The notes beneath the pieces were generated by a model. That model had not been told where the DNA came from and did not search any database. It saw only the letters and a list, made by a program, of their open reading frames with translations. A stretch of 37,718 nucleotides of DNA from Streptacidiphilus neutrinimicus (lineage in GTDB: Bacteria; Actinomycetota; Actinomycetes; Streptomycetales; Streptomycetaceae), in assembly GCF_000787815.1 (NCBI RefSeq), contig NZ_BBPO01000044.1, positions 33,107 through 70,824 of the forward strand, in the 5' to 3' direction. Shown here piece by piece: positions 11,119 through 33,694 of the stretch. Within the stretch, counting starts at the first letter, position 1. Each line of letters opens with the position of its first letter. Both the position numbers and the translations under genes were made by a program.

Positions 11119-11122
11119 GGAG

Positions 11123-11141
11123 CTGACGGTAAGTCAGATAT
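11123..11141. promoter_or_regulatory. Operator-like palindrome, copy 1 (ATATCTGAC-N6-TCAG)
   Basis: On the minus strand ATATCTGAC is followed after 6 bp by TCAG; the core CTGAC-N5-GTCAG is a perfect inverted repeat. It lies only 4 bp upstream of the start codon of the EthD-like gene, where bound protein would block transcription. The divergent XRE-like gene starts 126 bp on the other side. The same 19-bp pattern occurs at 12053 and 26673. Confidence 0.65.
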
Positions 11142-11266
11142 CGGGAACTGCCCAGAGGAAGCTCTGGAAGCTCCGGAGGAAGCTCCAGGCGGAACCGCCG
11201 GGGCCACGGATGCCTTGTGCGATCGTTGCCTGGGCCGACCCGCCTTGCCCCTTTAGCCTCCGATTC

Positions 11267-11953
11267 ATGCCGAGACGCACGCCTCCCTCCTCCGTCCCGG
11301 TTCCGTTCGAGCCGGCGGCAGCCCGTGCCGTGCGCTCCTCCCTCGGACTGAGCCCCGCCCTGGTCGCCCGCTCGCTCGCCGAGCAGTACGCGATGCCCGT
11401 GCCGCCCGCCCTGGTCATCGCCTGGGAGACCGGCGGCGCGCACCCCACCGAGCGCGAACTGATCGCGCTCGCGCGGGTGCTGTGGTGCCTGCCGGGCCAG
11501 CTGATGGGCGGACGCGCCGAGTCGCTGCGCGACCACCGACTCGCCATGGACCTGCCCCAGGAGGAGGTGGCCCGCCGGATCCGGGTCACCCCGCGCGAGT
11601 ACGCGAAGCTGGAGGTGCGCTGGACCGGCGACCGGACCATGACCCGCGACCTGGCAACCGCCCTGCACCTCTCCCCGCCCGTACTGGTCCGCGCCTGCGG
11701 CTGGGAGGAGGACCTCCAGGAGCTGCTGCGACGCGCGGTCGACGGCCGCTGGCAGGCCCAGGTGCGCCCGGTGCGCGACCTCGTCCCCACACTGTCGGAG
11801 GAGTGGATCACCCACGCGCTCCAGGCCCTCGCCGCCGAGCGGGCCACCTCGAGCGCGCTCTGGGGCGGCAGCGCCCCGACCGCGGTGACCGAGGAGCCGG
11901 AGGCGGAACCGCTGGAGCGCTTCTGGGCCCTGGTCGGCGTCACCCGCCTCTGA
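11267..11953 (+). CDS. DNA-binding protein with two tandem XRE-like HTH segments
   Basis: 228 aa from the ATG at 11267. No ribosome-binding site precedes this ATG, but TAGCCT lies 7 bp upstream, consistent with a leaderless transcript. Two helix-turn-helix-like units follow each other: about 16-80 (AARAVRSSLGLSPALVARSLAEQY, VIAWETGGAHPTERELIALARVL) and about 86-145 (LRDHRLAMDLPQEEVARRIRVTPREYAKLEVRW, TRDLATALHLSPPVL). The C-terminal 80 residues show no recognised ligand domain. Such proteins are common, uncharacterised regulators in streptomycetes. Its position between the EthD-like gene and the SDR gene makes it a candidate for the factor that reads the shared palindrome, although palindromes of this shape are also typical of TetR-like proteins. 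Confidence 0.82.
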   Translation: MPRRTPPSSVPVPFEPAAARAVRSSLGLSPALVARSLAEQYAMPVPPALVIAWETGGAHPTERELIALARVLWCLPGQLMGGRAESLRDHRLAMDLPQEEVARRIRVTPREYAKLEVRWTGDRTMTRDLATALHLSPPVLVRACGWEEDLQELLRRAVDGRWQAQVRPVRDLVPTLSEEWITHALQALAAERATSSALWGGSAPTAVTEEPEAEPLERFWALVGVTRL

Positions 11954-11984
11954 CGCGCCCGCCTCCCGCGCGAACGACGCCCGC

Positions 11985-12029
11985 ACCCACGACTCCCGGA
12001 CCCACGACCCTGGCACCCACGACCCTGGC
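11985..12029. repeat. Three 15-bp tandem repeats
   Basis: Units ACCCACGACTCCCGG, ACCCACGACCCTGGC and ACCCACGACCCTGGC lie head to tail just upstream of the SDR promoter; the proposed -35 hexamer (12025-12030) overlaps the end of the last unit. Slippage products or activator sites are both possible. Confidence 0.7.
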
Positions 12030-12071
12030 ACCCTGCGGCCGGAGACCCTACTCTGACGCATCGTCAGATAT
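12025..12071 (+). promoter_or_regulatory. SDR promoter with operator-like palindrome, copy 2
   Basis: CTGGCA (12025-12030) and TACTCT (12049-12054), 18 bp apart, form a plausible promoter. Directly overlapping the -10 end and the expected start point is TCTGACG-CAT-CGTCAGA, a perfect 7+3+7 palindrome, extended on one side by ATAT (12053-12071). Read on the minus strand it is ATATCTGAC-N6-TCAG, identical in layout to the copy at 11123-11141. The position suggests repression. Confidence 0.65.
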
Positions 12072-12098
12072 TTCTGGAGTGCTACCGGGAGGTTCGCC

Positions 12099-12884
12099 AT
12101 GCTGCTCGAAGGACGCACCGTCGTGGTCTCCGGCGTCGGGCCGGGTCTCGGGCACCGCGTCGCGCTGGCCGCGGCCCGCGACGGCGCCAACGTCGTACTC
12201 GGCGCGCGCACGCAGGAGAACCTGGTCAAGACCGCCGAGCAGATCGAGGCGAGCCGCCCGGGGACCACCGCGTGGAAGCGCACCGACATCGCCGACCCCG
12301 AGCGCTGCGACGCGCTCGCCGCGCTCGCCGTCGAACGCTTCGGCCGCATCGACGCGGTGATCCACGTCGCCGCCATGGACCAGTCCTTCGGCGGGCTGGA
12401 AGACGCCGACTTCGACGAGTGGCGCCGGGTCATCGACGTCAACCTGATCGGCACACTGCAGCTGACCCGCTCCTGCCTCCCCGCGCTGCGCGAACGCGGC
12501 GGCGCGGTCGTCATCGTCGGCACCCAGTCCGCCATCGCCGCGCCGTCCCAGGTCCGGCAGGCCGCGTACGCCGCCTCCAAGGGCGCGCTGACCAGCGCGA
12601 TGTACAGCATGGCCCGGGAGCTCGGCCCGTCCCGGATCCGGGTCAACACCGTGCTGCCGGGCTGGATGTGGGGGCCGATGGTGGAGGCCTACGTCACCTG
12701 GACCGCCACCGGCGAGAACGTCCCGCGGGAGGAGGTCGTGGGACGTCTCAGCGAGCGGGTCGTCCTTCCGGAGCTGGCCACCGACGGCGACGTCGCCGAG
12801 GCCGCGATCTTCCTCGCCTGCGACCGCGCCCGCGCCATCACCGGCCAGTCGCTCCTGGTCAACGCGGGCGAGATCATGCGCTGA
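12099..12884 (+). CDS. SDR-family NAD(P)-dependent oxidoreductase
   Basis: 261 aa, ATG with GGGAGG 6 bp upstream. Classical short-chain dehydrogenase: nucleotide-binding loop SGVGPGLG (11-18), and catalytic tetrad Asn115 (DVNLIGT), Ser144 (GTQSA), Tyr157 and Lys161 (YAASK). The usual NNAG motif is replaced by HVAA (89-92), a recognisable sub-family feature. After the active site come the typical RVNTVLPGWMWGP loop and a C-terminal GQSLLVNAGE. The substrate cannot be read from the sequence. Sharing an operator-like palindrome with the EthD-like gene suggests that both serve one oxidative pathway. It converges on fbiC with a 23-bp gap. Confidence 0.93.
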   Translation: MLLEGRTVVVSGVGPGLGHRVALAAARDGANVVLGARTQENLVKTAEQIEASRPGTTAWKRTDIADPERCDALAALAVERFGRIDAVIHVAAMDQSFGGLEDADFDEWRRVIDVNLIGTLQLTRSCLPALRERGGAVVIVGTQSAIAAPSQVRQAAYAASKGALTSAMYSMARELGPSRIRVNTVLPGWMWGPMVEAYVTWTATGENVPREEVVGRLSERVVLPELATDGDVAEAAIFLACDRARAITGQSLLVNAGEIMR

Positions 12885-12907
12885 CCCGGCGCGGTCCGGA
12901 ACCGGCC

Positions 12908-15565
12908 CTACTCGATCACCGGCAGCAGCTCCGGCAGGTGCCCGTCCGAGGCCAGCGCGGCCGCGCGCCGCTCGGCGGGGACCTCGCCGTAGAGGGTGGT
13001 GCGCTGGGCGGCCGGACGACCGGCCGCGGCGGCGACGGCCTCCAGGTCGCGGATGGACTTGTAGCTGCCGTAGGCGGAGCCCGCCATCCGGGAGATGGTC
13101 TCCTCCATCAGCGTGCCGCCGAGGTCGTTGGCGCCGCTGCGGAGCATCTCCGCCGCTCCCTCGGCGCCGAGCTTGACCCAGCTGGTCTGGATGTTGGGGA
13201 TCCGCCCGTGCAGCAGCAGCCGGGCCATGGCGGTGACGGCCCGGTTGTCGCGCGTCGTCGGGCCGGGCCGGGAGATGCCGGCGAGGTAGACGGGCGCGTT
13301 GGTGTGCACGAACGGCAGCGTCACGAACTCGGTGAAGCCGCCCCGGCCGGCTTCGAGCGAGCGGTCCTGGATCTCCGTGAGCACCCGCAGGTGGCCGAGC
13401 CAGTGACGGGGCTGGTCCACGTGCCCGTACATCATGGTGGACGAGGACCGGATGCCGAGCTCGTGCGCGGTGGTGACGACCTCGACCCAGGTCGCGGCGG
13501 GCAGCTTGCCCTTGGTCAGCACCCAGCGGACCTCGTCGTCGAGGATCTCGGCGGCGGTGCCGGGGATGGTGTCGAGCCCGGCCTCCTTGGCCTGCGTGAG
13601 CCAGTCCCTGATGGACAGCCCGGTCCTGGTCGCGCCGTTGACGACCTCCATCGGCGAGAAGGCGTGCACGTGCATGCCGGGCACGCGGTCCTTCACGGCC
13701 CGGGCGATGTCGAAGTAGGCGGTGCCGGGGAGGTCCGGGTGGATGCCGCCCTGCATGCACACCTCGGTCGCGCCGACCTCCCACGCCTGCTCGGCGCGGT
13801 CGGCCACCTGGGAGAGCGAGAGCGTGTAGGCGTCCGCGTCGGTGCGGCGCTGCGCGAAGGCGCAGAAGCGGCAGCCGGTGTAGCAGACGTTGGTGAAGTT
13901 GATGTTCCGCGTCACGCAGTAGGTGACGGTGTCGCCGACGACGTCCCGGCGGACCGCGTCGGCGACGGAGCAGAGCGCGTCGAGCGCGGGGCCGTCGGCG
14001 TGCAGGAGCGCCAGCGCCTGCGGGTCCGTCAGCCGGCGCGGGTCGTCGGCGGCGACGGCGAGCGCCTCGCGCACGTCCGCGTCCAGCCGCTCCACGCCCG
14101 CACGGTCGGGGGCGCCGGTCACCGCCGCGACCTCGCGCAGCGACTCCCAGTCGCCGTAGACGTCGTCGAAGTCGCCGCGCCGGTCGCCCGTGCGGCCTCC
14201 GCCGGGGCCTTCGGCGTCGATCTCGACGTGCAGCTCGGTGCGGCCGGAGGCGGTGAACGCCTCCTCCGGCTCCTGCCAGGGCAGGCCGACCGGCAACGCG
14301 TCCTCGCGTGCCAGCCCGGTCTCCGGGTCGGCCAGCGCCCGGATGTGCGGCAGCACGCGCGGGTCCAGCCACGGCTCGCCCTGGCGCACGTACTCGGGAT
14401 AGACGCAGAGGCGTTCGCGCAGCTCGAAGCCGGCCGCCCGGGAGCGCTCGGCCAGCTCCTCGATCTGCGGCCAGGGGCGCTCGGGGTTGACGTGATCGAT
14501 GGTCAGCGGCGAGACCCCGCCCCAGTCGTCGATCCCGGCGCCGATCAGCCGCTCGTACTCGCTGTCCACGAGGTTCGGCGGGGCCTGGAGACAGGCGGAC
14601 GGGCCCAGGATGTGCCGGGCCACGGCGACCGTGGCGACCAGGTCGTCCAGCTCGGCGTCCGGCATGCCGCGCATCGCCGTGCCCGGCTTGGCGCGGAAGT
14701 TCTGGATGATCAGTTCCTGGATGCCGTGGTAGGCCCGGGAGATCCGGCGCAGGGCGAACAGGGACTCCGCCCGCTCCTCGTAGGTCTCGCCGATGCCGAT
14801 CAGCAGGCCGGAGGTGAAGGGGACGGAGGAGCGGCCCGCGTCCTCCAGCACCCGCAGCCGGACGGCGGGCTCCTTGTCCGGGGAGCCGTAGTGCGGGCCG
14901 CCGGGCTCCGACCAGAGCCGGGTCGCGGTCGTCTCCAGCATCATGCCCATGGAGGGGGCGACCGGCTTCAGCCGCTGGAAGTCCGTCCAGGACATCACGC
15001 CCGGGTTGAGGTGGGGCAGCAGCCCCGTCTCCTCCAGGATGCGGACGGAGACGGCGCGGACGTAGGCGACGGTGTCGTCGTAGCCGTGCGCGTCGAGCCA
15101 CTCGCGTGCCTCGGGCCAGCGGTCCTCCGGCTTGTCGCCGAGGGTGATCAGGGCTTCCTTGCAGCCGAGCGCCGCGCCCTTGCGGGCCACGTCCAGCACC
15201 TCGTCCGGGGACATGAACATCCCGTGCCCGGCCCGGCGCAGCTTGCCCGGGACGGTGACGAAGGTGCAGTAGTGGCAGGTGTCCCGGCACAGCCGGGTCA
15301 GGGGGATGAAGACGCTCTTCGAGTAGGTGATGACGCCGGGTCGACCCGCCGCCTCCAGCCCCGCGTCGCGCACCCGGGCGGCGGACGCGGCGAGCTCCGT
15401 GAGGGCGTCACCCCGCGCCTGCAGCAGCACCGCGGCCTCGGCGACGTCGAGGGCTACCCCGCTCCGGGCGCGACTGACGGCCCGACGCATCGCGTTCGCG
15501 GTCGGCTGCGCGCTCGGCTGCGCGCCCGGTTGCCCGTTCGACTGGTGCTTCATGAGCTGAACCAT
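12908..15565 (-). CDS. fbiC: FbiC, bifunctional FO synthase (CofG-CofH fusion)
   Basis: 885 aa. Two radical-SAM domains in one chain: the N-terminal CofG-like half with CRDTCHYC (Cys93, 97, 100) and the C-terminal CofH-like half with CYTGCRFC (Cys561, 565, 568). Together they make 7,8-didemethyl-8-hydroxy-5-deazariboflavin (FO), the chromophore of coenzyme F420, from tyrosine and 5-amino-6-ribitylamino-uracil. Length and order match actinobacterial FbiC. Two ATGs (15565 and 15553) are possible; neither has a clear ribosome-binding site, so the N-terminus is uncertain by 4 residues. No other F420 gene is in the window. A 23-bp palindrome (15595-15617) lies 30 bp upstream, between fbiC and the divergent LolA-like gene. 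Confidence 0.97.
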
Positions 15566-15594
15566 ACGCGGATCTGCTGGCCCGGCCCTCGAGT

Positions 15595-15617
15595 AACCCT
15601 GAGAACGTCTCAGGGTT
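15595..15617. promoter_or_regulatory. 23-bp palindrome in the divergent fbiC / LolA-like region
   Basis: Perfect 10-bp arms AACCCTGAGA and TCTCAGGGTT around ACG. It lies 30 bp from the fbiC start and 105 bp from the LolA-like start. Genes diverge here, so a terminator is unlikely; a dimeric repressor or response-regulator site is more likely. Confidence 0.7.
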
Positions 15618-15721
15618 CCGTAGTCCGACGGGTGGAACGGGCTTTGCGCCCGTGGGCCGATGCCGCGGACGGGGGCGAGGCGTTCAATGACAGGGTGGGA
15701 AAGACGACGGAGGGACGATCA

Positions 15722-16888
15722 ATGTCGAACAGCACCGCCCGGACGAGCCGTAAGCGGCTGCTGCTGGCGTCGGCGGCCGTGGCGGCCGTAGCGGGTTCCG
15801 TGGCCGCGGGGACGGCGCTGGCCGCGGGGCCCTCGCTGCCAGCGGTGTCGGCGCAGGCCCTGCTGGCGCGTGCGCTCAGCAGCCACCAGCAGTCCTTCTC
15901 CGGCACGGTCGAGTCGACCGTGGACCTGGGCCTGCCCTCTCAGCTGGTCTCGCAACTGCCCTCGGCGCTCGGCGCCTCGGGCGCCAAGTCGGGCGCGAGC
16001 GCGGCCGCGGACCCGCAGGCCCAGCAGGCGGAGCAGCAATTGCTCGGTCTGCTGTCGGGGACGCACGACTTCACCGTGGCCATGGACGGCCCGAACCGTC
16101 AGGCCTTCAGCTCGACGGACACCGGCACCACGGTCCGGTTCGTCCACAACGGCACCGAGGCCTGGTCGTACGACAGCCGGAGCAACCAGGCCACCCAGTA
16201 CACCGGGATCAACCCGGACGAGGCGACCACGCATCCGAGCGCCCCGGCGATGAGCACCCCTGCGGACGCCGCGCGGATGCTTCAGGAGATCGCACCGTTC
16301 AGCTCGGTCTCGGTCGACGGCAACTCGATGGTGGCGGGGCGCCAGGTCTACGTCCTCGTCATCTCCCCCAAGGGAGCCGGCTCCACCATCGGCGACGTGC
16401 GCCTGTCCGTGGACGCGCGGACGGACATGGCGCTCGGCGTCCAGGTGGACCCGTCCGACGGCAGCAGCCCGATCGCCGACGTCCGGTTCGCGAGCATCAG
16501 CTACGCCGAGCCGGCCGCGAGCACCTTCGACTTCACCCTGCCGCAGGGCGCGAAGCTGACCACCAAGTCCGCGCAGCGGGGCGCCGGTCAGCAGCAGAAG
16601 CACGCCCCCGGCCACCCGGGCGCGCAGGGCCCGCAGAACGGGCAGGCGCGAGGCGACGACGTCCAGATGATCGGCACCGGCTGGACGACCGTCTACAAGA
16701 TCAGCCCCTCGGCCACCGCCAAGAACGGCAAGGGCGGCAACCCGGCGGACGCGCTCAAGTCCCTCGGCCACTCCGTCCCCGGCGGCACGCTGTTCACCAC
16801 CAAGGCGTTCAACGTGCTGGTCACCGACAACGGCACCGTCTACGCCGGCGCGGTCACCCCGCAGTTCCTGGAGAACCTGGCCAAGTAG
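15722..16888 (+). CDS. Secreted LolA/MucB-like protein
   Basis: 388 aa; the ATG at 15722 has GGAGGG 7 bp upstream, which decides it within a much longer open frame. Signal peptide 1-35 (RKRLLLASAAVAAVAGSVAAGTALAA). The mature part has the features of the LolA/RseB-MucB-type curved sheet: ALSSHQQSFSGTVESTVDLGLP, DFTVAMDGPNRQAF, VRFVHNGTEAWSYDSRSNQATQYTG, and YVLVISPKG followed by VRLSVDARTDMALGVQVDP. A Gly/Gln-rich linker (about 293-318) leads to a C-terminal segment ending GGTLFTTKAFNVLVTDNGTVYAGAV. In actinomycetes such proteins are extracytoplasmic, possibly lipid- or lipoprotein-binding or envelope-stress sensors; the specific role is unknown. Monocistronic, with a hairpin at 16931-16966. 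Confidence 0.85.
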   Translation: MSNSTARTSRKRLLLASAAVAAVAGSVAAGTALAAGPSLPAVSAQALLARALSSHQQSFSGTVESTVDLGLPSQLVSQLPSALGASGAKSGASAAADPQAQQAEQQLLGLLSGTHDFTVAMDGPNRQAFSSTDTGTTVRFVHNGTEAWSYDSRSNQATQYTGINPDEATTHPSAPAMSTPADAARMLQEIAPFSSVSVDGNSMVAGRQVYVLVISPKGAGSTIGDVRLSVDARTDMALGVQVDPSDGSSPIADVRFASISYAEPAASTFDFTLPQGAKLTTKSAQRGAGQQQKHAPGHPGAQGPQNGQARGDDVQMIGTGWTTVYKISPSATAKNGKGGNPADALKSLGHSVPGGTLFTTKAFNVLVTDNGTVYAGAVTPQFLENLAK

Positions 16889-16934
16889 TCCAGACAAGTG
16901 AAGATCTTCTACGGGAACTAGTCCGGACAAGTGA
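16886..16934. repeat. 16-bp direct repeat after the LolA-like gene
   Basis: TAGTCCAGACAAGTGA (16886-16901, containing the stop codon) and TAGTCCGGACAAGTGA (16919-16934) differ at one base and are 33 bp apart. The second overlaps the hairpin that follows. Confidence 0.75.
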
Positions 16935-16966
16935 TCGGTCGACCGAGTCTTCGGTCGACCGATCAC
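16931..16966 (+). terminator. 16-bp perfect hairpin made of two SalI-type palindromes
   Basis: Arms GTGATCGGTCGACCGA and TCGGTCGACCGATCAC with loop GTCT. Each arm itself contains the 12-bp palindrome TCGGTCGACCGA. It lies 43 bp after the LolA-like stop and is the likely terminator. No T-run follows, and two identical palindromes 16 bp apart before the phosphodiesterase gene could also be protein-binding sites. Confidence 0.6.
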
Positions 16967-17058
16967 ATCTGCTCATGCGTCGTTCTTCCAAACTTACTTC
17001 TCGGTAGTTAGCGTGCAGCTCCGTCATGCACCGGCCCGCCTCTACCGAGGAGACCCTC

Positions 17059-18087
17059 GTGCGCAAGCGCGCTCTGCTCGCCACCGCCGTCGCCGCAGCC
17101 ACCGCCGTTCTCGGTGGCCTGACCGTCGCGCCCGCCGCCCACGCGTCGACCACCGGCAACTCGCTCTCCGTCTTCGCCTGGAACGTCGACCTGGCCACCT
17201 CCGTGGTCGACAGCACCGAGAGTGAGAACGCCGCCGGCCGCACGCCGGTCGTCGAGTCGATCATCAAGCAGCACAACGCCGACGTGGTGGTCCTGGACGA
17301 GCTGTTCAACCACAGCTCGACCAGCAACATCGAGAGCGCACTGGCCGCCCAGTACCCGTACCACACGCCGGTCGTCGGCCAGGTCTGCTCCGGCGGCGGC
17401 TGGAACGGCATCAGCGGGGACTGCTCGAACTCGCTGTTCGTCATCAACGGCGGCACCATGATCTTCTCGAAGTACCCGATCACCGCCCAGTACGCGCACG
17501 TCTTCTCCAACTCGACCTCGGGCACCTGGGACTACGACTCCAACAAGGGCGCCGCGCTGGCGGAGATCGACAAGAACGGCGTCAACACCTGGGTCGTCGG
17601 CACGCACCTGCAGGCCGACCAGTCCGGCACCTCCACGGACACCACGCAGGCGACCCGCCTCGCCCAGCTCGGCGAGATCAAGAGCTGGGTCGACGGCATC
17701 GTCGGCTCCTCCGCGCCGGTGCTCATCGGCGGCGACTTCAACGTCGAGTACTTCCACGGCGCTTCGCGCGGGGACTACACCAACGCGCAGAACGCCGTGG
17801 GCGGCGTGCTGGGCACCCCCGCCACCGACCCGAGCCAGCTGACCACCATGGACTGCCCGGTCTCGGCCTGGTGCCAGTACATGTCCGGCGTCGAGTCCTT
17901 CCCGAGCGACTACCAGGACAGCCTCGACTACATCGGCTACCTGAACGCGCCGGGCCGCCCGACCCCGCTGGCGCTGCCGTCCGTCACCACGGACTTCGAC
18001 CCGCAGGCCGGCTGGACCCAGGGTCAGAGCGACACCCGGTCGCCGAGCGACCACTACCCGGTGCAGAGCACCTTCCAGCTTCCGTAG
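17059..18087 (+). CDS. Secreted sphingomyelinase C-type phosphodiesterase (endonuclease/exonuclease/phosphatase fold)
   Basis: 342 aa from the GTG at 17059, chosen because GAGGAGA is 5 bp upstream and the signal peptide (RKRALLATAVAAATAVLGG, cleavage after AHA, residue 29) then has normal length; the ATG at 17026 would add 11 unneeded residues. Mature part: WNVD (Asn42), VVLDELFNHSST (Glu81, metal), YPYHTPVVG, GTHLQAD (His183), GGDFNVE (Asp226, Asn228), and C-terminal PSDHYPV (Asp331, His332). This set and the order match bacterial neutral sphingomyelinases/phospholipase C of the DNase I superfamily, which cleave phosphocholine headgroups with Mg2+. The extracellular substrate could be another phospholipid. 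It is a single-gene unit. Confidence 0.9.
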   Translation: MRKRALLATAVAAATAVLGGLTVAPAAHASTTGNSLSVFAWNVDLATSVVDSTESENAAGRTPVVESIIKQHNADVVVLDELFNHSSTSNIESALAAQYPYHTPVVGQVCSGGGWNGISGDCSNSLFVINGGTMIFSKYPITAQYAHVFSNSTSGTWDYDSNKGAALAEIDKNGVNTWVVGTHLQADQSGTSTDTTQATRLAQLGEIKSWVDGIVGSSAPVLIGGDFNVEYFHGASRGDYTNAQNAVGGVLGTPATDPSQLTTMDCPVSAWCQYMSGVESFPSDYQDSLDYIGYLNAPGRPTPLALPSVTTDFDPQAGWTQGQSDTRSPSDHYPVQSTFQLP

Positions 18088-18272
18088 CACCCTGGCGAGG
18101 GAGGGCGCGCGCAGCGTGGTACACACCACTCGACGGGGTGTCAGAGCGCCTCGCGTACCCCGTCTCATCTGCTGAAAGGCACCTTGACGCACCACAGTTG
18201 ATGCCGATGCCATGGACCGTCACACGCGCCCAGTGCGGGGGCGCCGTCGGTTCGAGCCAGAAGGCATCACGT

Positions 18273-19583: not shown

Positions 19584-19604
19584 GCCGCCGCGGGCCGCGC
19601 GGAG

Positions 19605-20387
19605 TCAGCCCCCCGCCACCAGCACCCGTCCCACGGCGGCGCCGGCCTGCTGCCTGGCCCCGGCCGGCAGCCCGGCGTCCGTCACGAGCGTGTCCACCGC
19701 GGACAGCGGCGCGTAGGACGACAGGCTGACCACCCCCCACTTGCTGTGGTCCGCGAGGACGACCACGCTGCCCGCGCAGGCGATCAGCGCGCGGTTGGTC
19801 TCCGCCTCGGCGAGGTTGGGGGTGGTCAGGCCCGCCGTGGGGTCGACCCCGTGGCATCCGAGGAAGAGCTGGTCGACGTGGAGGTCGTGCAGGGCCAGCC
19901 GCGCCATGGTGCCGACCAGCGCGTCGCTGGGAGTGCGCACGCCGCCGGTCAGCACGACCGTGGGGCCGGGCCGGGCGGGCCGCCGGGCCTCGGCGAAGAC
20001 CTCGGCGACGCGGACGGAGTTGGTGACGACCGTCAGCCGCTCGACGCGCAGCAGATGGCGGGCGAAGGCCCGGGTCGTCGTGCCCGCGGAGACCGCGATC
20101 GCGGTGCCGGGACGGACCAGGCGCGCGGCGAGCCGGGCGATCTCGTCCTTGGCCTGCGGCTCCCACTCCGTCTTGGCCTCGAAGCCGGGCTCCACGCCGC
20201 CCGCGCCGTCGGCGTGCAGCGCGCCGCCGTGGACCTTCAGGGCCAGCCCCAGCCGGGCCAGCTCGGCCAGGTCCCGGCGGATCGTCATGTCGGAGACGCC
20301 GAAGCGCGCGGACAGCTCCCCCACCCGGACGCTGCCGCACCGGCGGATCTCCGCGAGGATCACGGACTGGCGCCGCTTCGCCAGCAT
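19605..20387 (-). CDS. DeoR-family transcriptional regulator
   Basis: 260 aa, ATG with GAGGAAG 4 bp upstream. N-terminal winged helix (residues 3-56: RRQSVILAEI, VRVGELSARFGVSDMTIRRDLAELARLG). Then the DeoR C-terminal sugar-phosphate-sensing domain with AVSAGTTTRAFARHL, VVTNSVRVAEV, VVLTGGVRTPSDALVG and ADHSKWG. The ligand would be a phosphorylated sugar or polyol. The rarD gene lies upstream on the same strand (67-bp gap), but a DeoR-like site at 20446-20461 suggests an own, autoregulated promoter. The adjacent sugar-binding protein is a plausible target. Confidence 0.94.
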   Translation of the reverse strand: MLAKRRQSVILAEIRRCGSVRVGELSARFGVSDMTIRRDLAELARLGLALKVHGGALHADGAGGVEPGFEAKTEWEPQAKDEIARLAARLVRPGTAIAVSAGTTTRAFARHLLRVERLTVVTNSVRVAEVFAEARRPARPGPTVVLTGGVRTPSDALVGTMARLALHDLHVDQLFLGCHGVDPTAGLTTPNLAEAETNRALIACAGSVVVLADHSKWGVVSLSSYAPLSAVDTLVTDAGLPAGARQQAGAAVGRVLVAGG

Positions 20388-20445
20388 GTCGCTTCCTCGC
20401 CCCCTCGCCGCGGAGGGCCCCGCCTCACACAGAGTCGGACGTCCC

Positions 20446-20461
20446 TGAACGCAATCAAACA
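20446..20461 (-). promoter_or_regulatory. Candidate DeoR-type operator
   Basis: Read on the minus strand: TGTTTGATTGCGTTCA, two half-sites of the TGTTYG/GTTCA kind typical of DeoR-family sites. It lies 59 bp upstream of the regulator start and overlaps the rarD stop codon. It is unusually AT-rich for the surroundings. Confidence 0.45.
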
Positions 20462-21438
20462 GGATCGCGCATATCAGAAACCCCGGGACCCACCGCTGTC
20501 AAGGGGTCGCGCTCCGCGCCCGACGTGGCGTCAGCTCCCCTGCGGGCCTGCCGCAACCCGTCCACGGTCAGGACCAGCAGCGCCACCCAGACGAGGGCGA
20601 AGCCGGCCCAGCGCTCGGCCGGCATGTGCTCGTGGAAGACGGCGATGCCGAGCAGGAACTGGAAGACCGGGGCCAGGTACTGCAGCAGCCCCATCGTGGT
20701 CAGCGGCACCCGGACCGCGGCCGCGCCGAAGGCGACCAGCGGGACGGCCGTCACCACCCCGCACAGGGCCAGCAGCGCGCTGTGCCCGGGCCCGTGCCCG
20801 GTGAAGGTGGACCGCCCGCTCGCGGACAGCCACAGCAGGTAGCCCAGGGCCGGCAGGAAGAGGAACGCCGTCTCCAGTGCGAAGCCCTCCAGGCCGCCGA
20901 GGTTGACCGTCTTCTTCAGCAGTCCGTAGGTGGCGAAGGAGAACGCGAGCGTCAGCGCGATCCACGGCAGCCGGCCGTAGCCGAGGGTCAGCACCAGGAC
21001 CGCGGCGGCGCCCGTCGCCACGGCGACCCACTGCGCGGGCCGCAGGCGCTCCTTGAGGACGAGCACGCCGAAGGTGATGGTGACCAGCGGGTTGATGAAG
21101 TAGCCGAGCGAGGTCTCGACGACGTGACCGGAGTTGACGCCCCAGATGTACATGCCCCAGTTGACGCTGATCACCACGGCCGCCAGGCCGATCAGCGCCA
21201 GCCGCTTCGGCTGCCGCAGCAGCGGGCGTATCCAGGAGAGCGCGTCCGGGCGCCTCAGCCGCTGCAGGGCCAGCAGCGCGACCGCCACGACCAGGGACCA
21301 GGCCATCCGGTCCGCCAGGATCTCCCAGGCGCCGGCCGGTTTCAGCAGCGGCCAGTACAGGGGGAAGAACCCCCACATCGCGTAGGCGGCGAATCCCAGC
21401 CACAGTCCGGTGCGTTGCTCGTGACGTCTCCCACTCAT
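20455..21438 (-). CDS. rarD: RarD, EamA-family permease
   Basis: 327 aa with ten predicted membrane segments in two EamA repeats. RarD-specific motifs are present: GFAAYAMWGFFPLYWPLLKPAGAWEILADR (segment near the N-terminus), SVNWGMYIWGVNSGHVVETSLGYFINPLV, and LLQYLAPVFQFLLGIAVFHEHMPAERW. Length is slightly above the family norm (about 300) owing to a polar C-terminal tail. The substrate is unknown; related EamA proteins export amino acids or metabolites. The ATG at 21438 has no good ribosome-binding site, while a TACCGT hexamer 6 bp upstream permits a leaderless mRNA. Confidence 0.93.
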   Translation of the reverse strand: MSGRRHEQRTGLWLGFAAYAMWGFFPLYWPLLKPAGAWEILADRMAWSLVVAVALLALQRLRRPDALSWIRPLLRQPKRLALIGLAAVVISVNWGMYIWGVNSGHVVETSLGYFINPLVTITFGVLVLKERLRPAQWVAVATGAAAVLVLTLGYGRLPWIALTLAFSFATYGLLKKTVNLGGLEGFALETAFLFLPALGYLLWLSASGRSTFTGHGPGHSALLALCGVVTAVPLVAFGAAAVRVPLTTMGLLQYLAPVFQFLLGIAVFHEHMPAERWAGFALVWVALLVLTVDGLRQARRGADATSGAERDPLTAVGPGVSDMRDPV

Positions 21439-21455
21439 CCGAGGACGGTAAGCGA

Positions 21456-21492
21456 GAGCGCCCCCGCCCCGGAAGTCCGGGTGGGGGCGCTC
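21456..21492 (-). terminator. Terminator after the KimA-like gene
   Basis: 10-bp outer stem GAGCGCCCCC/GGGGGCGCTC, a small internal loop, 5-bp inner stem CCCGG/CCGGG and loop AAGT. It lies 28 bp downstream of the stop codon at 21520 and before rarD. Confidence 0.75.
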
Positions 21493-21519
21493 ATCGCGCG
21501 AGCGGTTCTCGGCGCGGCG

Positions 21520-23577
21520 TCAGTGCTCGCTGTCGGCGTGGTCCGAGCCCTCGATGGTGTGGTCGAGGTGGTCCAGCTTCTCCACCTTGATGCCGGACGC
21601 CGCGGCGTCCTCCAGCTCGTCGTGGGCGCTCACCACGTCGAACGGGACGATGGTGGTGACCACGTTCGGCAGCTTGCCGACCGCGCGGGCGATCTGGTCC
21701 GGCGTGCGGCGGTGCAGCAGACGGCCCAGGACCGGCGAGTAGTTGCGCTCCGGGATCAGCAGCGTGATCTGGCTCTTCTCCCGCTTGGCGGTGCGGGCGA
21801 TCAGCTCGACCAGGGCGCGGGCGATGCGGCGGTCCGGGCACTCGACGATCTCCAGCGACAGGTCGCCGACCTCGACGTTGCTCCACTGGAGCCGCAGCCG
21901 GTCGGCCTCGCGGTCGTCCGTCATGAAGTGCACCGCGCGGATCTCGGCGGGCCGCATCGAGCGGGCGTAGCGGATCGCCTTGAGCACGGCCAGGTCGACG
22001 CGGTCGACCAGGATGTACATCACCTGGCGGCGCGGGGTCGGGCTGGTGGCGTCGACCGGGGCCATGGCCAGCGCCTCGGCCTCCTCGCGGTAGCGCTTGT
22101 TGACCTTGATCAGCGACCAGACGCCGATCGGGAAGATCACCACGACCATCCAGGCGCCCTCGGTGAACTTGGTGACCGCGAAGATCCCGACCACCGCGAA
22201 CGAGGCGACGGCCGCGGCGCCGTTGATCGCGACCTTGATCTTCCACTTGCCCTCGCGGCGGTCCAGGTGGTGCTTGACCATGCCCGCGCCGGCCATGGTG
22301 AAGCCGGTGAAGACGCCGATCGCGTACAGGCTGACCAGACGGGTCAGGTCGCTGTCGGTGCCGATCAGCAGCAGCAGCGACACGACGGTCAGCACGATGA
22401 TGCCGCTGGAGAAGGCGAGGCGGTGCCCGCGACGGGTCAGCTGGCGCGGCAGGAACGAGTCCTCGGCGACGAAGCTGGCCAGGAAGGGGAAGCCGTTGAA
22501 GGAGGTGTTGGCGCCGGTGTAGAGGATCAGCGCGGTGGCGAGCTGTACGAAGACCAGCGCCGCGTTGCCGTACCAGCTGCTGCCGAAGGCCCAGCTGGCC
22601 TCCTGCGAGACGACGGTCGGGGTGCCGTCCACGAACGGCGTCGCGTGGGTGATGTGCGCCAGCAGCGAGACCCCGAGGACGCCGGTGCCCAGCACGGCCG
22701 ACATGACGACCATGGTCTTGCGGGCGTTCTTGCCCTGCGGGTTGCGGAAGACGCTGACGCCGTTGGAGATGGCCTCCAGGCCGGTCAGCGAGGAGCCGCC
22801 GTTGGCGAAGGCGCGCAGCATGGTGAGCAGTGCCGCGCCGTAGAAGAAGCCGTGCTCCCCGGTGCCGAGGGTGTACATCCCGGCCTGGTGGGTGCTCAGC
22901 TGGGTGTGGTCGCCGGTGAGGAAGCGGAGGAAGCCGACGATGACGAGCAGGCCCATCGCGCCCATGAACAGGTAGGCGGGGAGGGCGAAGGCCCGGCCGG
23001 CCTCGCGGATGCCGCGCAGGTTTCCCCAGCACAGCAGCAGCACGACCGCGACGGTCAGCCACAGCTTGTGGTCGGCGACCAGGGTTATGAAGGACCCGTT
23101 CCCCCAGAGGAACTGCCCGAGGGAGACCAGCGCGTCGGTACCGGCGGCCGCCTGGACGGCCACGGTGACGATGTAGTCGATGAGCAGTGCGACGGCCGCG
23201 ATCTGGGCGATCCGGGGGCCGAAGTTCTCGCGTGCGACGACGTACGAACCGCCCGCCCGGGTGTAGACCGAGACGACCTCGCGGTACGAGAAGGTCAGCA
23301 GGACCAGCAGGCCCAGGATCACGAAGGTCAGCGGGATCAGCGCGGTGAACGCGGCGATGCCGATCGCGGGGATCAGGATCACCAGCATCTGCTCGGAGCC
23401 GTAGGCCATGGACGAGATGCAGTCCGAGGCCAGCACGCCGAGTGCGACGGAGTTCGAGAGCTTCTCGTGGCTGAGCTGCTCGGTGACCAGGGGCTTACCG
23501 AGCAAACGTTTCTTCACTCGGTAGCCGAGGCTCTCCGGGAGTTCGACCTCGCCAGAGGGGCTGATGGTGCCGGCCAT
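21520..23577 (-). CDS. APC-superfamily transporter resembling KimA (YdaO) potassium importer
   Basis: 685 aa from the ATG at 23577. The open frame reaches 23649, but the extra 24 residues cross a hairpin and look non-coding. About 12 membrane segments. Shared patterns with B. subtilis KimA and relatives: LASDCISSMAYGSEQMLVILI, YTRAGGSYVVARENFG, IDYIVTVAVQAAAGTDAL, and MLRAFANGGSSLTGLEAISNGV followed by FRNPQGKNARKTM. The C-terminal about 170 residues (from RRQVMYILVDRVDL) form a soluble USP-like domain, as in KimA. KimA imports K+ and is inhibited by c-di-AMP; for this protein that is inference. Databases may list it only as an APC amino-acid permease. It follows korB on the same strand with a 121-bp gap that contains its own leader hairpin. 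Confidence 0.85.
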   Translation of the reverse strand: MAGTISPSGEVELPESLGYRVKKRLLGKPLVTEQLSHEKLSNSVALGVLASDCISSMAYGSEQMLVILIPAIGIAAFTALIPLTFVILGLLVLLTFSYREVVSVYTRAGGSYVVARENFGPRIAQIAAVALLIDYIVTVAVQAAAGTDALVSLGQFLWGNGSFITLVADHKLWLTVAVVLLLCWGNLRGIREAGRAFALPAYLFMGAMGLLVIVGFLRFLTGDHTQLSTHQAGMYTLGTGEHGFFYGAALLTMLRAFANGGSSLTGLEAISNGVSVFRNPQGKNARKTMVVMSAVLGTGVLGVSLLAHITHATPFVDGTPTVVSQEASWAFGSSWYGNAALVFVQLATALILYTGANTSFNGFPFLASFVAEDSFLPRQLTRRGHRLAFSSGIIVLTVVSLLLLIGTDSDLTRLVSLYAIGVFTGFTMAGAGMVKHHLDRREGKWKIKVAINGAAAVASFAVVGIFAVTKFTEGAWMVVVIFPIGVWSLIKVNKRYREEAEALAMAPVDATSPTPRRQVMYILVDRVDLAVLKAIRYARSMRPAEIRAVHFMTDDREADRLRLQWSNVEVGDLSLEIVECPDRRIARALVELIARTAKREKSQITLLIPERNYSPVLGRLLHRRTPDQIARAVGKLPNVVTTIVPFDVVSAHDELEDAAASGIKVEKLDHLDHTIEGSDHADSEH

Positions 23578-23595
23578 GGTGGTGGATTCCGATCC

Positions 23596-23630
23596 GGGCG
23601 GGAGTGGACCACCTATGCATACTCCCGCCC
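23596..23630 (-). promoter_or_regulatory. Leader hairpin in front of the KimA-like gene
   Basis: Perfect 10-bp arms GGGCGGGAGT and ACTCCCGCCC around a 15-nt AT-containing loop, 19 bp before the preferred start codon. TAAGAT, a possible -10 box, lies about 45 bp further upstream (near 23670). The hairpin may control translation or early termination. It does not show the c-di-AMP riboswitch motifs. Confidence 0.5.
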
Positions 23631-23698
23631 GATAGGACATATCGGACATCCGTTAACGCAGGCCGGGATCTTAGCGGCTCCCTAACGCCTGTGTGACC

Positions 23699-24664
23699 TC
23701 ACCGAACCATCCACGTGTCGGAACCGCTAAGAAGCGCCGACAGATCCCCCTCACCACGCTCCGCGACGGCCTGGTCCAGTTGCGCGTTCAACTGCCGGTC
23801 GTAGGCGGGCCTGGCCACCGCCCGCAGCACCCCGATCGGGGTGGGCTCGGTGAGCCGGGACAGCGCGAAGGCGCGCGTCGGGTCCGGGTCGGTCACGTCG
23901 TGGACGATCTCCTCGCCGTCAGGCGTGAGACGGTACGGCTGCCCGTGCTCCAGGCGCAGCAGGGCGGCGTCCCGCGTCGCCGGGTCCTTCAGGACCTCGA
24001 AGGCGCCGTCGTTGAAGATGTTGCAGTTCTGGTAGATCTCCACCAGCGCCGTGCCCTGGTGCTGGGCGGCGGCGCGCAGCACCGAGGTGAGGTGCTGGCG
24101 GTCGGAGTCGATGGTGCGGGCCACGAAGCCCGCCTCCGCGCCGAGCGCGAGCGACAGCGGGCGGAACGGCTCGTCCAGGGAGCCCATCGGGGTCGACTTG
24201 GTGATCTTGCCGGGCTCGCTGGTGGGCGAGTACTGGCCCTTGGTGAGGCCGTAGATCCGGTTGTTGAACAGCAGGATCTTCAGGTTCACGTTGCGGCGCA
24301 GCGCGTGGATCAGGTGGTTGCCGCCGATGGACAGCGCGTCGCCGTCCCCGGTGATCACCCACACCGACAGGTCCGGCCGCGAGGACGCCAGCCCGGTGGC
24401 GATCGCCGGGGCGCGGCCGTGGATGGAGTGCATCCCGTAGGTGCTGAGGTAGTACGGGAAGCGCGAGGAGCAGCCGATCCCGGAGATGAAGACGATCTTC
24501 TCTCTGGGGATGCCGAGCTCGGGCAGGAAGCCCTGCACCGCGGCCAGGATCGCGTAGTCCCCGCAGCCGGGGCACCAGCGCACCTCCTGGTCGGACTTGA
24601 AGTCCTTCGCCGTCAGCTTCAGCGCGCCGTTCGCCGTGACGCCGGTCGCCTTGATCTCAGTCAT
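23699..24664 (-). CDS. korB: 2-oxoacid:ferredoxin oxidoreductase, beta subunit
   Basis: 321 aa. Contains the thiamine-diphosphate site GDGDALSIGGNH (106-117) with the downstream NNRIYGLTKGQ, and the cysteines of the [4Fe-4S] cluster (WCPGCGD Cys31/34, GIGCSSR Cys65, QNCNIF). With KorA it decarboxylates a 2-oxoacid, most likely 2-oxoglutarate, and reduces ferredoxin, giving a CoA- and ferredoxin-dependent step of the TCA cycle. The start overlaps the korA stop by 8 bp, so translation is coupled. Length and domain layout match the mycobacterial/streptomycete KorB group. Confidence 0.96.
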   Translation of the reverse strand: MTEIKATGVTANGALKLTAKDFKSDQEVRWCPGCGDYAILAAVQGFLPELGIPREKIVFISGIGCSSRFPYYLSTYGMHSIHGRAPAIATGLASSRPDLSVWVITGDGDALSIGGNHLIHALRRNVNLKILLFNNRIYGLTKGQYSPTSEPGKITKSTPMGSLDEPFRPLSLALGAEAGFVARTIDSDRQHLTSVLRAAAQHQGTALVEIYQNCNIFNDGAFEVLKDPATRDAALLRLEHGQPYRLTPDGEEIVHDVTDPDPTRAFALSRLTEPTPIGVLRAVARPAYDRQLNAQLDQAVAERGEGDLSALLSGSDTWMVR

Positions 24665-26582
24665 CGAGCGCCTCCGAGATGACGGCGGCCAGCTGGGCGG
24701 CCTTGAACGGCATGCCGCTGACCTGCGTGAACGAGCGGGCGTCGACCAGGTACCTGGCCCGCAGCAGCATCGCGAGCTGCCCGAGGTTCATCTCCGGCAC
24801 CAGCACCCTGTCGTAGCGCCGCAGCAGCTCGCCGAGGTTGGCCGGGAAGGGGTTGAGGTAGCGCAGGTGGGCCTGGGCGACCCTGCCGCCCGCGGCGCGG
24901 GCGCGCCGCACGCCGGCGGCGATCGGCCCGAAGGTCGAGCCCCAGCCGAGCACCAGCAGCCCCGCGTCGCCGCCCGGGTCGTCCACGGCGAGGTCCGGGA
25001 CGCTGACGCCGTCGACCTTGGCCTGGCGGGTGCGGACCATGTGGTCGTGGTTGGCCGGGTCGTAGGAGATGTTCCCCGTCCCGTCCTGCTTCTCGATCCC
25101 GCCGATGCGGTGCTCCAGCCCTGGCGTGCCCGGCACCGCCCAGGGCCGCGCCAACGTCTGCGGGTCGCGCAGGTACGGCCAGAAGCCGCCCGAGCCGTCG
25201 GGGGCGTTGGGCTCGGTCGCGAACTCGACCCGCAGGTCCGGCAGCTCGGAGACCTCCGGGACGCGCCACGGCTCCGAGCCGTTGGCCAGGTACCCGTCGG
25301 ACAGCAGGAACACCGGCGTGCGATAGGCCAGCGCGATCCGCGCCGCCTCCAGCGCCATGGTGAAGCACTCCCCCGGCGAGGCGGGCGCCACGATCGGCAC
25401 CGGCGCCTCGCCGTTGCGCCCGAACATCGCCTGCAGCAGGTCCGCCTGCTCGGTCTTGGTCGGCAGGCCCGTCGACGGACCGCCGCGCTGGATGTCCACC
25501 ACCAGCAGCGGCAGCTCCAACGACACCGCCAGCCCGATCGTCTCGCTCTTGAGCGCGACGCCCGGCCCCGACGTCGTGGTCACGCCCAACGCGCCGCCGA
25601 AGGCCGCCCCGAGTGCCGCGCCGATCCCGGCGATCTCGTCCTCGGCCTGGAAGGTCCGCACGCCGAAGTTCTTGTGCTTCGACAGCTCGTGCAGGATGTC
25701 GGAGGCCGGGGTGATCGGATAGGAGCCCAGGAACAGCGGCAGACCCGACTGCCGCGAGGCCGCGATCAGCCCGTACGCCAGCGCCAGGTTGCCGGAGATG
25801 TTGCGGTAGCGCCCCGGCGCGAAGGCCCGCGCCGCCGGAGCCACCTCGTAGGAGACCGCGAACGACTCGGTGGTCTCGCCGTAGTTCCAGCCCGTCCGGA
25901 ACGCCAGCACGTTGGCCTCGGCGATCTCGGGTTTCTTCGCGAACTTGGCCCGCAGGAACGTCTCGGTGCCCTCGGTGGGCCGGTGGTACATCCAGGACAG
26001 CAGCCCGAGCGCGAACATGTTCTTGGCCCGCTCCGCGTCCTTGCGCGACAGCGAGGTCTCCTTCAGCGCCTCCACCGTCAGCGTGGTCAGCGCCACCGGG
26101 TGCACCCGGTACTCGGCCAGCGTTCCGTCGTCGAGGGGGTCCGCCTGCCAGCCCACCTTGGCCAGCGCGCGCTTGGTGAACTCGTCCGTGTTGACGATGA
26201 TCTCCGCGCCGCGCGGCAGGTCCGCCAGGTTCGCCTTGAGCGCGGCCGGGTTCATCGCGACCAGCACGTCCGGGGCGTCGCCCGGGGTGAGGATGTCGTG
26301 GTCGGCGAAGTGCAGCTGGAAGCTGGAGACGCCGGGCAGGGTGCCTGCCGGGGCCCGGATCTCGGCCGGGAAGTTCGGCAGCGTCGACAGGTCGTTGCCG
26401 AAGCCGGCCGTCTCGGAGGTGAAGCGGTCACCGGTCAGCTGCATACCGTCACCGGAGTCCCCGGCGAAGCGGATGACGACGCGGTCGAGCCGCCGCACCC
26501 GCTTGCCCCCATTGGCCGGCTCGGACTCCGGATCATGGGACTCGTCGAACGTGGAACCCGTCTCCTCGACCCTGCTGGTCAC
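24657..26582 (-). CDS. korA: 2-oxoacid:ferredoxin oxidoreductase, alpha (gamma-alpha fused) subunit
   Basis: 641 aa from the GTG at 26582. That start is preferred over the GTG at 26603 because AGGGAGG then lies 8 bp upstream. Residues about 35-210 are the gamma domain (RFAGDSGDGMQLTGDRF) and residues about 240-640 the alpha domain (GNLALAYGLIAASRQSG, YPITPASDILHELSKHK, TSGPGVALKSETIGLAVSLELPLLVVDIQRGGPSTGLPTKTEQ as successive motifs). The gamma-alpha fusion is normal for actinobacterial KorA. First gene of korAB. The 105-bp upstream gap contains the third copy of the ATATCTGAC-N6-TCAG motif, overlapping the stop codon of the response-regulator gene. Confidence 0.96.
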   Translation of the reverse strand: MTSRVEETGSTFDESHDPESEPANGGKRVRRLDRVVIRFAGDSGDGMQLTGDRFTSETAGFGNDLSTLPNFPAEIRAPAGTLPGVSSFQLHFADHDILTPGDAPDVLVAMNPAALKANLADLPRGAEIIVNTDEFTKRALAKVGWQADPLDDGTLAEYRVHPVALTTLTVEALKETSLSRKDAERAKNMFALGLLSWMYHRPTEGTETFLRAKFAKKPEIAEANVLAFRTGWNYGETTESFAVSYEVAPAARAFAPGRYRNISGNLALAYGLIAASRQSGLPLFLGSYPITPASDILHELSKHKNFGVRTFQAEDEIAGIGAALGAAFGGALGVTTTSGPGVALKSETIGLAVSLELPLLVVDIQRGGPSTGLPTKTEQADLLQAMFGRNGEAPVPIVAPASPGECFTMALEAARIALAYRTPVFLLSDGYLANGSEPWRVPEVSELPDLRVEFATEPNAPDGSGGFWPYLRDPQTLARPWAVPGTPGLEHRIGGIEKQDGTGNISYDPANHDHMVRTRQAKVDGVSVPDLAVDDPGGDAGLLVLGWGSTFGPIAAGVRRARAAGGRVAQAHLRYLNPFPANLGELLRRYDRVLVPEMNLGQLAMLLRARYLVDARSFTQVSGMPFKAAQLAAVISEALDD

Positions 26583-26672
26583 GACGTGGGCCTCCCTCGT
26601 CACCGATGGTGGTGCTCCGCGTAAAAGATCCTATGCCCGTCAAGGTGCCTGGCGGTGGATCCCGAGGACACG

Positions 26673-26691
26673 ATATCTGACGGTCAATCAG
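26673..26691. promoter_or_regulatory. ATATCTGAC-N6-TCAG motif, copy 3, upstream of korA
   Basis: ATATCTGAC, six bases, TCAG on the plus strand. The long arm is identical to the copies at 11123 and 12053, but the palindrome is weaker (CTGA/TCAG only). It lies 91 bp upstream of the korA start and reaches into the stop codon of the preceding response-regulator gene. Confidence 0.4.
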
Positions 26692-27377
26692 GAATTGAGA
26701 TAGGTCAGCACCGCCAGCACCCGGCGGTGGTCCTCCGGGCTCTGGCCCAGGCCCAGCTTCGCGAAGATGTTGCTGACGTGCTTCTCCACGGCGCCGTCGG
26801 AGACCACCAGCTGACGCGCCACGGCCGCGTTGCTGCGGCCCTCGGCCATCAGGCCTAGGACCTCCCGCTCCCGCGGCGTCAGATCGGCCAGCACGTCCCG
26901 CTTGCGGCTGCGGCCCAGCAGCTGCGCGACCACCTCCGGGTCCAGCGCGGTGCCGCCGGCGGCGACGCGGGAGACCGCGTCCACGAACTCGCGCACCTCC
27001 GCCACCCGGTCCTTCAGCAGGTAGCCGACCCCGCGGGTCGAGCCCGCCAGCAGCTCCGCGGCGTAGCGCTCCTCCACGTACTGCGACAGCACCAGGGTGC
27101 CCACGCCGGGGTGCCGCTCACGCAGGGCGATGCAGGCGCGCACGCCCTCGTCGGTGTGGGTCGGCGGCATCCGCACGTCCGCCACCACCACGTCCGGTGC
27201 GCCCTCCGCGGACGCCGCCAGCCCGTCGACCAGCGCCAGCAGCGCCTCACCGTCCTCCACGGCGCCGACGACCGCGAGACCGCGGTCGGTCAGCAAGCGG
27301 GTCAGACCCTCGCGCAGCAGCACGGAGTCCTCGGCTATCACGACACGCAGCGGCACGGGCGGGAGCGGCATGGTCAC
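26688..27377 (-). CDS. NarL/FixJ-type response regulator, no adjacent kinase
   Basis: 229 aa. Receiver domain with acidic pocket (IAEDSVL), phospho-acceptor Asp67 ([10 protein letters not shown]), and the conserved Lys of LLKDRV. LuxR-type helix-turn-helix at about 165-212 ([35 protein letters not shown]). The start is either the GTG at 27377 or the ATG at 27371; TAGCAT 6 bp before the ATG would allow a leaderless mRNA. No sensor kinase lies on either side, which is unusual for this sub-type. It follows the polyprenyl synthase by 10 bp, so the two may be co-transcribed. Confidence 0.94.
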
Positions 27378-33675: not shown

Positions 33676-33694
33676 TGTCGTGTCGCCTCCGCCG

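Follow-up and report, generated by a model that had tools for sequence, protein, structure and literature searches.

A conserved 17-bp palindrome and a candidate TetR-type repressor of steroid- and terpenoid-type catabolic genes in Streptacidiphilus and its relatives

CYP125 and a steroid thiolase are members of the regulon of the mycobacterial TetR-type repressor KstR, and the pocket of EthR, the TetR-type repressor of ethA in Mycobacterium tuberculosis, is a long hydrophobic tunnel. The operator of KstR is given as TnnAACnnGTTnnA, a motif that overlaps the −10 box, in the accessible part of PMC1995591. The EthR motif is characterized in the available portion of PMC4482099 as larger, more complex and present in multiple copies, and MftR, according to the available portion of PMC8728441, is an acyl-coenzyme A (CoA) responsive TetR repressor of mycofactocin synthesis. 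Recognised steroid pathways were absent from 55 of 57 Streptomyces genomes, as stated in the accessible part of PMC4810484. Here we describe a short palindrome that occurs three times in a 37,718-nucleotide stretch of the Streptacidiphilus neutrinimicus genome (contig NZ_BBPO01000044.1, positions 33,107 to 70,824; hereafter, the window). The site precedes many putative steroid- and terpene-type catabolic genes in Streptacidiphilus, Streptomyces and more distant relatives and, judging from sequence comparisons, is very probably bound by a conserved and previously unstudied repressor protein. We consider it likely that it is the operator of a TetR repressor carrying the domain PF19352, placed over a CoA-linked catabolic regulon of steroid or terpenoid type. 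No earlier description of the operator, of PF19352 by name or of such a regulon surfaced among the papers listed in a literature search covering mostly non-subscription papers.

A preliminary description of the window had reported the pattern ATATCTGAC-N6-TCAG at three places (minus strand, 11141-11123 and 12071-12053; plus strand, 26673-26691), and all three matches were recovered. None of 100 dinucleotide shuffles of the window contains the pattern, and the 9-mer ATATCTGAC is as rare as had been supposed, with 0.02 occurrences expected in the window. The exact 19-mer occurs four times in the whole genome (8,418,219 bases, 184 contigs; reversed control 0), each time on the window's own 70.8-kb contig (C141: 7811, 44229, 45159 and 59779). 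Copies 1 and 2 are indeed palindromes, CTGAC-N5-GTCAG being exact in both, and in copy 3 one base deviates; once two mismatches are tolerated, the enrichment of the palindrome in the window disappears (33 occurrences against 26.5 expected). The relaxed pattern TCTGAY-N5-RTCAG matches the genome 37 times on the plus strand and 35 times on the minus strand, with no match in the reversed control, so the window holds part of something larger. The full palindrome TCTGAYGNNNCRTCAGA is found at 8 places in the same genome and at least once in 42 of the 61 genomes searched.

What is conserved is a 17-bp palindrome, TCTGAYG-N3-CRTCAGA. Sites were scored by comparing each 7-base arm with TCTGACG, T for C counting half a point, to a maximum of 14; genes were called with a script based on guanine and cytosine (GC) content, and their start positions are approximate. 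Own-genome stretches of 498 kb, picked for holding matches to related patterns and about 78% coding by this caller, contain 50 sites scoring at least 12, and 44 of them are intergenic (binomial P 2e-23). Only one of 140 sites scoring at least 12.5 lies inside a gene in 80 named loci, which are Streptomyces and Streptacidiphilus stretches around the gene of the TetR candidate described below (the best 80 of 530 relatives). When the spacer was varied in the first 40 of these loci, N3 gave 71 matches, and N0–N2 and N4–N8 gave 0 or 1 each. From the fixed spacing and the intergenic placement it follows that the operator is the 17-bp palindrome; with this unit, the earlier 19-mer is three flanking bases too long on one side and one short on the other. 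The exact 19-mer was rejected as the unit, its ATA flank being no general part of the site, and part of this flank is retained in some promoter sets. The genome scan for random placement inside genes, proposed earlier as a check, favoured a regulatory site, since the sites are mostly intergenic.

Conservation upstream of orthologues, the other proposed check, was found for both a short-chain dehydrogenase (SDR) gene and the gene of a conserved 283-residue protein (Table 1). SDR orthologues are present in 29 of the 61 genomes, the own genome included, and all 29 have an upstream site scoring 11–14 (at least 12 in 28). Homologues of the 283-residue protein (E ≤ 1e-30) were found in 35 of the 61, again with the own genome; a site of 11–14 precedes the gene in 30 of 30 homologues examined and scores at least 12 in 28, a count that leaves out five more distant homologues (G014, G016, G030, G031 and G052). 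The two genes are divergent around one common site in G015, G021, G034 and G035, and in the distant genome G340 a relative of the 283-residue protein (35% identical) has a perfect site 49 bp upstream. Comparison stretches reached a score of 11 in 10 of 87 cases for the SDR set and in 12 of 90 for the other set; 20 of these 22 are the operator of the other window gene, and the remaining two are one place counted twice.

The third site precedes the genes of a 2-oxoacid:ferredoxin oxidoreductase (kor), for which 30 loci were examined. Within the genus, 9 of 13 loci have a site of 11.5–13.5 at −71 to −105, and the other four (G001, G003, G009 and G013) score 11–12 at other distances. All eight loci from another family of the same order (f3, 14 genomes) score 10 or less, as do seven of the nine other loci outside the genus, and the remaining two score 12 at −231 and −351; the 90 comparison stretches of this set all score 10 or less. 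Copy 3 had been described as the weakest, overlapping a stop codon. The overlap is real, and the idea of a spurious site was rejected within the genus: copy 3 is some 70 bp from the kor start, on its upstream side, and its counterparts score up to 13.5/14. A second kor alpha gene in the own genome (G000:C155:85903-87768) is 82% identical to the window copy at 24657-26603; hence the operator-bearing copy looks like a duplicate that was recruited in Streptacidiphilus.

The best candidate for the regulator is a TetR protein encoded outside the window (G000:C179:147909-148544). It matches PF00440 (TetR_N) with 26.7 bits (cut-off 24) and, in its C-terminal domain, PF19352 with 233.2 bits (cut-off 23.9). 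The predicted structure has an all-helical TetR fold (mean predicted local distance difference test score, pLDDT, 89.5), and its first 25 fold matches in the PDB are EthR entries with target-normalised template modelling (TM) scores of 0.84–0.89. The protein is present in 51 of the 61 genomes, and S. anmyonensis and S. jiangxiensis have it with 100% identity. Its gene lies within a site-rich cluster (C179:120-159 kb) and within the counterparts of this cluster in the f3 genomes G041, G046 and G043, and it is the one regulator gene recognised in all of them, part of the cluster genes having been profiled. In a sample of 296 Actinomycetota genomes, at least two exact sites were found in 13 of 20 TetR-positive genomes (E < 1e-30) and in 1 of 276 others (Fisher 6e-17), and outside the own family in 6 of 11 and 1 of 276 (Fisher 4e-9); both values ignore shared ancestry and are hence too small. 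With E ≤ 1e-10, the figures are 14 of 32 and 0 of 264. The reversed control matched once each in three of the 296 genomes, compared with 25 genomes with the motif.

In three of eleven distant loci, an operator scoring 12–14 lies ahead of TetR: before the gene itself in L178 and L180 and, for its operon, before the directly preceding isochorismatase-family gene in L176. In the named loci, the TetR start codon is overlapped by a degenerate CTGAC-N5-GACAG, and the surrounding bases, CTGACGGCATGACAGGACAAGT, are kept, wobble positions included, in 77 of 80 loci, with one change in the other three. CTGACGGCATGACAGGACAAGT comprises one perfect and one degenerate half-site at the same spacing, a pattern that could be the mark of TetR autoregulation. 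The region (L140-L169, L197-L276) is near-invariant with AT-ending wobble codons despite the GC-rich genomes, and an operator, a leaderless start or both may lie behind this. Two TetR homologues are disrupted, one by an in-frame stop (G107:C74:75367-75987) and one by a split into three matched pieces (G007:C4:7404922-7405555; G007 is 76% complete), and these are either decayed genes or sequencing errors.

The direct targets in the own genome include luciferase-like oxidoreductases, acyl-CoA dehydrogenases, SDRs, AMP-binding ligases, thiolases and amidohydrolases, as well as a flavin reductase, an isochorismatase-like gene and a cyclase-like gene. By Pfam, 41 targets include 4 luciferase-like proteins, 4 acyl-CoA dehydrogenases, 3 SDRs and 2 AMP-binding proteins; 41 random control genes from the same stretches include 2 acyl-CoA dehydrogenases, both from the C179 cluster, and at most one each of the luciferase-like, SDR and AMP-binding families (best 25 of 65 families). 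One target matches CYP125 (3e-155) and is divergent from a steroid 3-ketoacyl-CoA thiolase (PRK07850, 680.2 bits, cut-off 515) across one perfect operator. CYP125 homologues (69–70%) in four other genomes have exact sites 16–80 bp upstream, and in two of the four the thiolase is divergent from CYP125 within 160 bp. A cholesterol oxidase and a FadD3-family ligase (above cut-off) are also among the targets, together with an SDR nearest to 3alpha,20beta-hydroxysteroid dehydrogenase and a thiolase whose closest match is the lipid-transfer protein of PDB 6ok1, known as a steroid side-chain aldolase. The f3 cluster additionally holds a ChsH2-type OB protein and an FO synthase. These families suggest a regulon for the CoA-linked breakdown of steroid-like molecules or of other polycyclic terpenoids.

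A number of observations weigh against this interpretation. At least 10 of the 41 targets seem unrelated by eye (sortase, chitinase, kumamolisin, efflux and others), the Pfam contrast between targets and controls is modest, and no ring-opening enzyme (KstD, KshA, HsaC) was noticed among the profiled cluster genes, for which no dedicated search was made, so that no complete pathway can be claimed. The threshold of E < 1e-30 was set after the results were known, and no more than ten TetR candidates were scored per genome in the 296-genome sample. The TetR-positive genomes G227, G302, G107 and G159 have no exact site, only exact sites having been searched, and G075, G097 and G282 have one each; conversely, 9 of the 276 genomes lacking TetR have at least one exact site, with two in G121 (62% complete). 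Within the own family, 9 of 37 genomes have TetR and no exact site. Near the TetR gene, 8 of 11 distant loci have no site scoring 12 or more before it, and the own-genome site at the TetR start scores only 10/14. Other members of the cluster would be compatible with the co-occurrence, too.

As to the mechanism, a TetR dimer with the PF19352 ligand domain would read the two TCTGAYG half-sites and, once bound there, would mask the −10 region of the promoter and block transcription, as has been proposed for KstR. The promoter would be freed when the ligand domain binds an inducer, for which a CoA thioester or another pathway intermediate is most likely. The regulon would serve the CoA-linked catabolism of steroid-like or polycyclic terpenoid molecules and partly overlap with KstR-type sites (among others at CYP125 and the steroid thiolase), and the duplicated kor operon would have been recruited to it in Streptacidiphilus. 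In the 29 SDR promoters, the operator mostly begins inside a −10-like TANTCT box, and a conserved C[TC]CTGG lies about 20 bases above this box, 24–29 bases before the operator. The C[TC]CTGG box may serve as a −35 element or bind an activator. A single fixed promoter layout was rejected: among 139 site-gene pairs, the operator is overlapped by CTGG-N18-20-TANNNT in only 6 (0.6 expected), so the box of the SDR promoters is particular to a few promoters. Operator pairs exactly 61 bp apart occur in several divergent promoters (Table 1), and spacings of 33, 51 or 62 bp were seen in other pairs. The 61-bp spacing may reflect two facing promoters or cooperative binding.

Several other explanations were weighed. 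That the three window matches arose by chance or are left over from a mobile repeat can practically be dismissed: the shuffled and reversed controls for the window and the own genome gave zero counts, and intergenic placement, fixed spacing and conservation across families likewise led us to reject this origin. The preliminary description had proposed one regulator, either a TetR-like protein or the double-XRE protein encoded in the window. A single regulator is supported for the 283-residue protein gene, the SDR and, within the genus, the kor operon, and a TetR-type protein was the first of the two guesses. The double-XRE gene does lie between two of the sites; however, no match to its product (E ≤ 1e-10) was obtained in any of the 14 f3 genomes, 13 of which carry exact sites, or in G005, G011 and G013 of the same genus and G015, which have 6, 6, 6 and 15 exact sites, respectively. 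The double-XRE protein is therefore a highly improbable regulator and, barring its non-homologous replacement in those genomes, was rejected on this distribution. KstR was rejected as well, since its operator differs from the palindrome and its sequence from that of the TetR candidate. The same operator and regulon could also be served by another regulator of the cluster, such as the GntR-type protein encoded beside the SDR in f3, with TetR as a passenger. In G041 and G043, an operator separates the SDR from a divergent small gene, and the one in G041 (L124:12141-12515) matches GntR-type models; co-occurrence alone singles out no one gene, part of the cluster genes having been profiled. Nevertheless, the SDR of the own genome has no such neighbour, TetR is the only regulator recognised in both own and f3 clusters and is preceded by operators in the three distant genomes mentioned, and a short-spaced palindrome suits a TetR dimer, which makes the GntR-type alternative rather unlikely.

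The operator and the TetR repressor may be as proposed and the substrate a different carboxylic acid, cyclic or branched, such as a diterpenoid or aromatic one; this is a real possibility, which we hold to be somewhat less than probable. The only target amidohydrolase that was searched (C141:9717) has DitZ and PtmU3 as its nearest PDB matches, names known from diterpenoid work. Luciferase-like, cyclase-like and isochorismatase-like genes and an FO synthase are present, and to our knowledge they lie outside the cholesterol pathway. The scarcity of recognised steroid pathways in Streptomyces, cited above, points in the same direction. On the other side, CYP125, the steroid thiolase, the cholesterol oxidase and the lipid-transfer-protein thiolase stand under the same operator, and KstR-like sites lie near some operators. 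With the PF19352 TetR protein as the regulator, a wider idea can be offered tentatively: streptomycetes and distant Actinomycetota might possess an unrecognised pathway for sterol-like or polycyclic terpenoid compounds, linked to F420 via luciferase-like enzymes and FO synthase, with a regulator of its own that overlaps with KstR and is distinct from it, most of the hosts having been scored as lacking steroid catabolism.

The sites and genes are collected in Table 1. The name "EthD-like", given earlier to the 283-residue protein, is unsupported because the protein matches no Pfam family at E ≤ 0.001, the EthD domain included. The kor beta subunit is of PorB_KorB type with 240.7 bits, under the model cut-off of 261.9. 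No operator of its own was seen at the window FO synthase CofGH, and a counterpart of this enzyme (71%) lies inside the f3 cluster. NADH dehydrogenase (nuo) genes are found at both contig ends (C141:2-1541 and window 28551-37718); NuoN was confirmed in the window, and most of the other nuo genes were judged by eye.

Table 1. Operators and genes of the window, and operator pairs elsewhere (window positions unless a contig is named)
Feature	Position	Strand	Remarks
Operator 1	11122..11138	-	12/14 to consensus; 4 bp before called start of 283-residue protein gene
Conserved 283-residue protein ("EthD-like"), target	10267..11118	-	no Pfam family
Operator 2	12052..12068	+	perfect 14/14; 31 bp before SDR start
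Short-chain dehydrogenase (SDR), target	12099..12884	+	NCBIfam PRK07890 subfamily
Operator 3	26676..26692	-	11.5/14; ~70 bp before kor alpha start
2-oxoacid:acceptor oxidoreductase alpha subunit, target	24657..26603	-	TIGR03710 above cut-off
2-oxoacid:ferredoxin oxidoreductase beta subunit	23699..24664	-	next gene of presumed operon
FO synthase CofGH (F420 cofactor)	12908..15565	-	convergent with SDR
Double-XRE protein	11267..11953	+	neighbour gene between two sites
LuxR-type response regulator	26688-27377	-	stop codon overlapped by operator 3
61-bp operator pairs, own genome	C179:145751/145812, 157392/157453		
61-bp operator pairs, one orthologous promoter	G041 C1:33560/33621; G046 C3:622938/622999; G043 C10:279890/279951		

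The analysis defines precisely an operator that can be tested and names a candidate for its repressor; the catabolic regulon concerned is conserved widely in Streptomyces and related bacteria. Unassigned genes, namely those of luciferase-like oxidoreductases, amidohydrolases and the 283-residue protein, are placed in one programme with CYP125 and steroid-type enzymes, and what Streptomyces does with steroid-like molecules becomes directly testable. The regulon is of interest for its breadth, because it overlaps with KstR-type sites and because it occurs in organisms regarded as poor in steroid catabolism.

Among the described systems, MftR, compared by its description in the available part of PMC8728441, is similar as a TetR protein tied to a redox cofactor of dehydrogenases. 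The difference is that two target SDRs fall under the cut-off of the mycofactocin-coupled model TIGR03971 (146.7 bits for the window SDR and 175.9 for the other, cut-off 300). EthR is the nearest solved fold (TM 0.87 by target, 0.79 by query) and the best PDB sequence match of the TetR candidate (residues 13-74, E 2e-5); the identity in the fold alignment is nevertheless 18%, and the EthR motif, as far as it is presented in the accessible text of PMC4482099, is unlike the 17-bp palindrome. KstR2 offers the parallel of a second TetR protein beside KstR over part of the steroid pathway (rings C/D; available part of PMC4810484), whereas neither an entry named KstR2 nor KstR is among the 13 PDB matches of the candidate at E ≤ 0.001.

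The proposed system resembles that of KstR in that a TetR protein would govern a large lipid catabolic regulon, with autoregulation and a short palindrome placed partly on the −10 box. Its operator TCTGAYG-N3-CRTCAGA is unlike TnnAACnnGTTnnA, and a KstR-like protein encoded separately in the own genome (C172:69979-70455, its start probably called too late; match to KstR 2e-29) shares only 27% identity over 95 residues with the TetR candidate. Near-perfect KstR-type sites TAGAACNNGTTCTA were noticed at C172:55-72 kb and C113:15909 beside acyl-CoA dehydrogenase and thiolase-like genes. Only 5 of 75 operators have a KstR-like site (AACNNGTT core, at least 9/12) no more than 80 bp away, with 0.16 expected from mononucleotide shuffles, and one perfect KstR-type 14-mer adjoins the operator at C113:15924. 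CYP125 and the steroid thiolase, both members of the KstR regulon, here carry the window-type operator.

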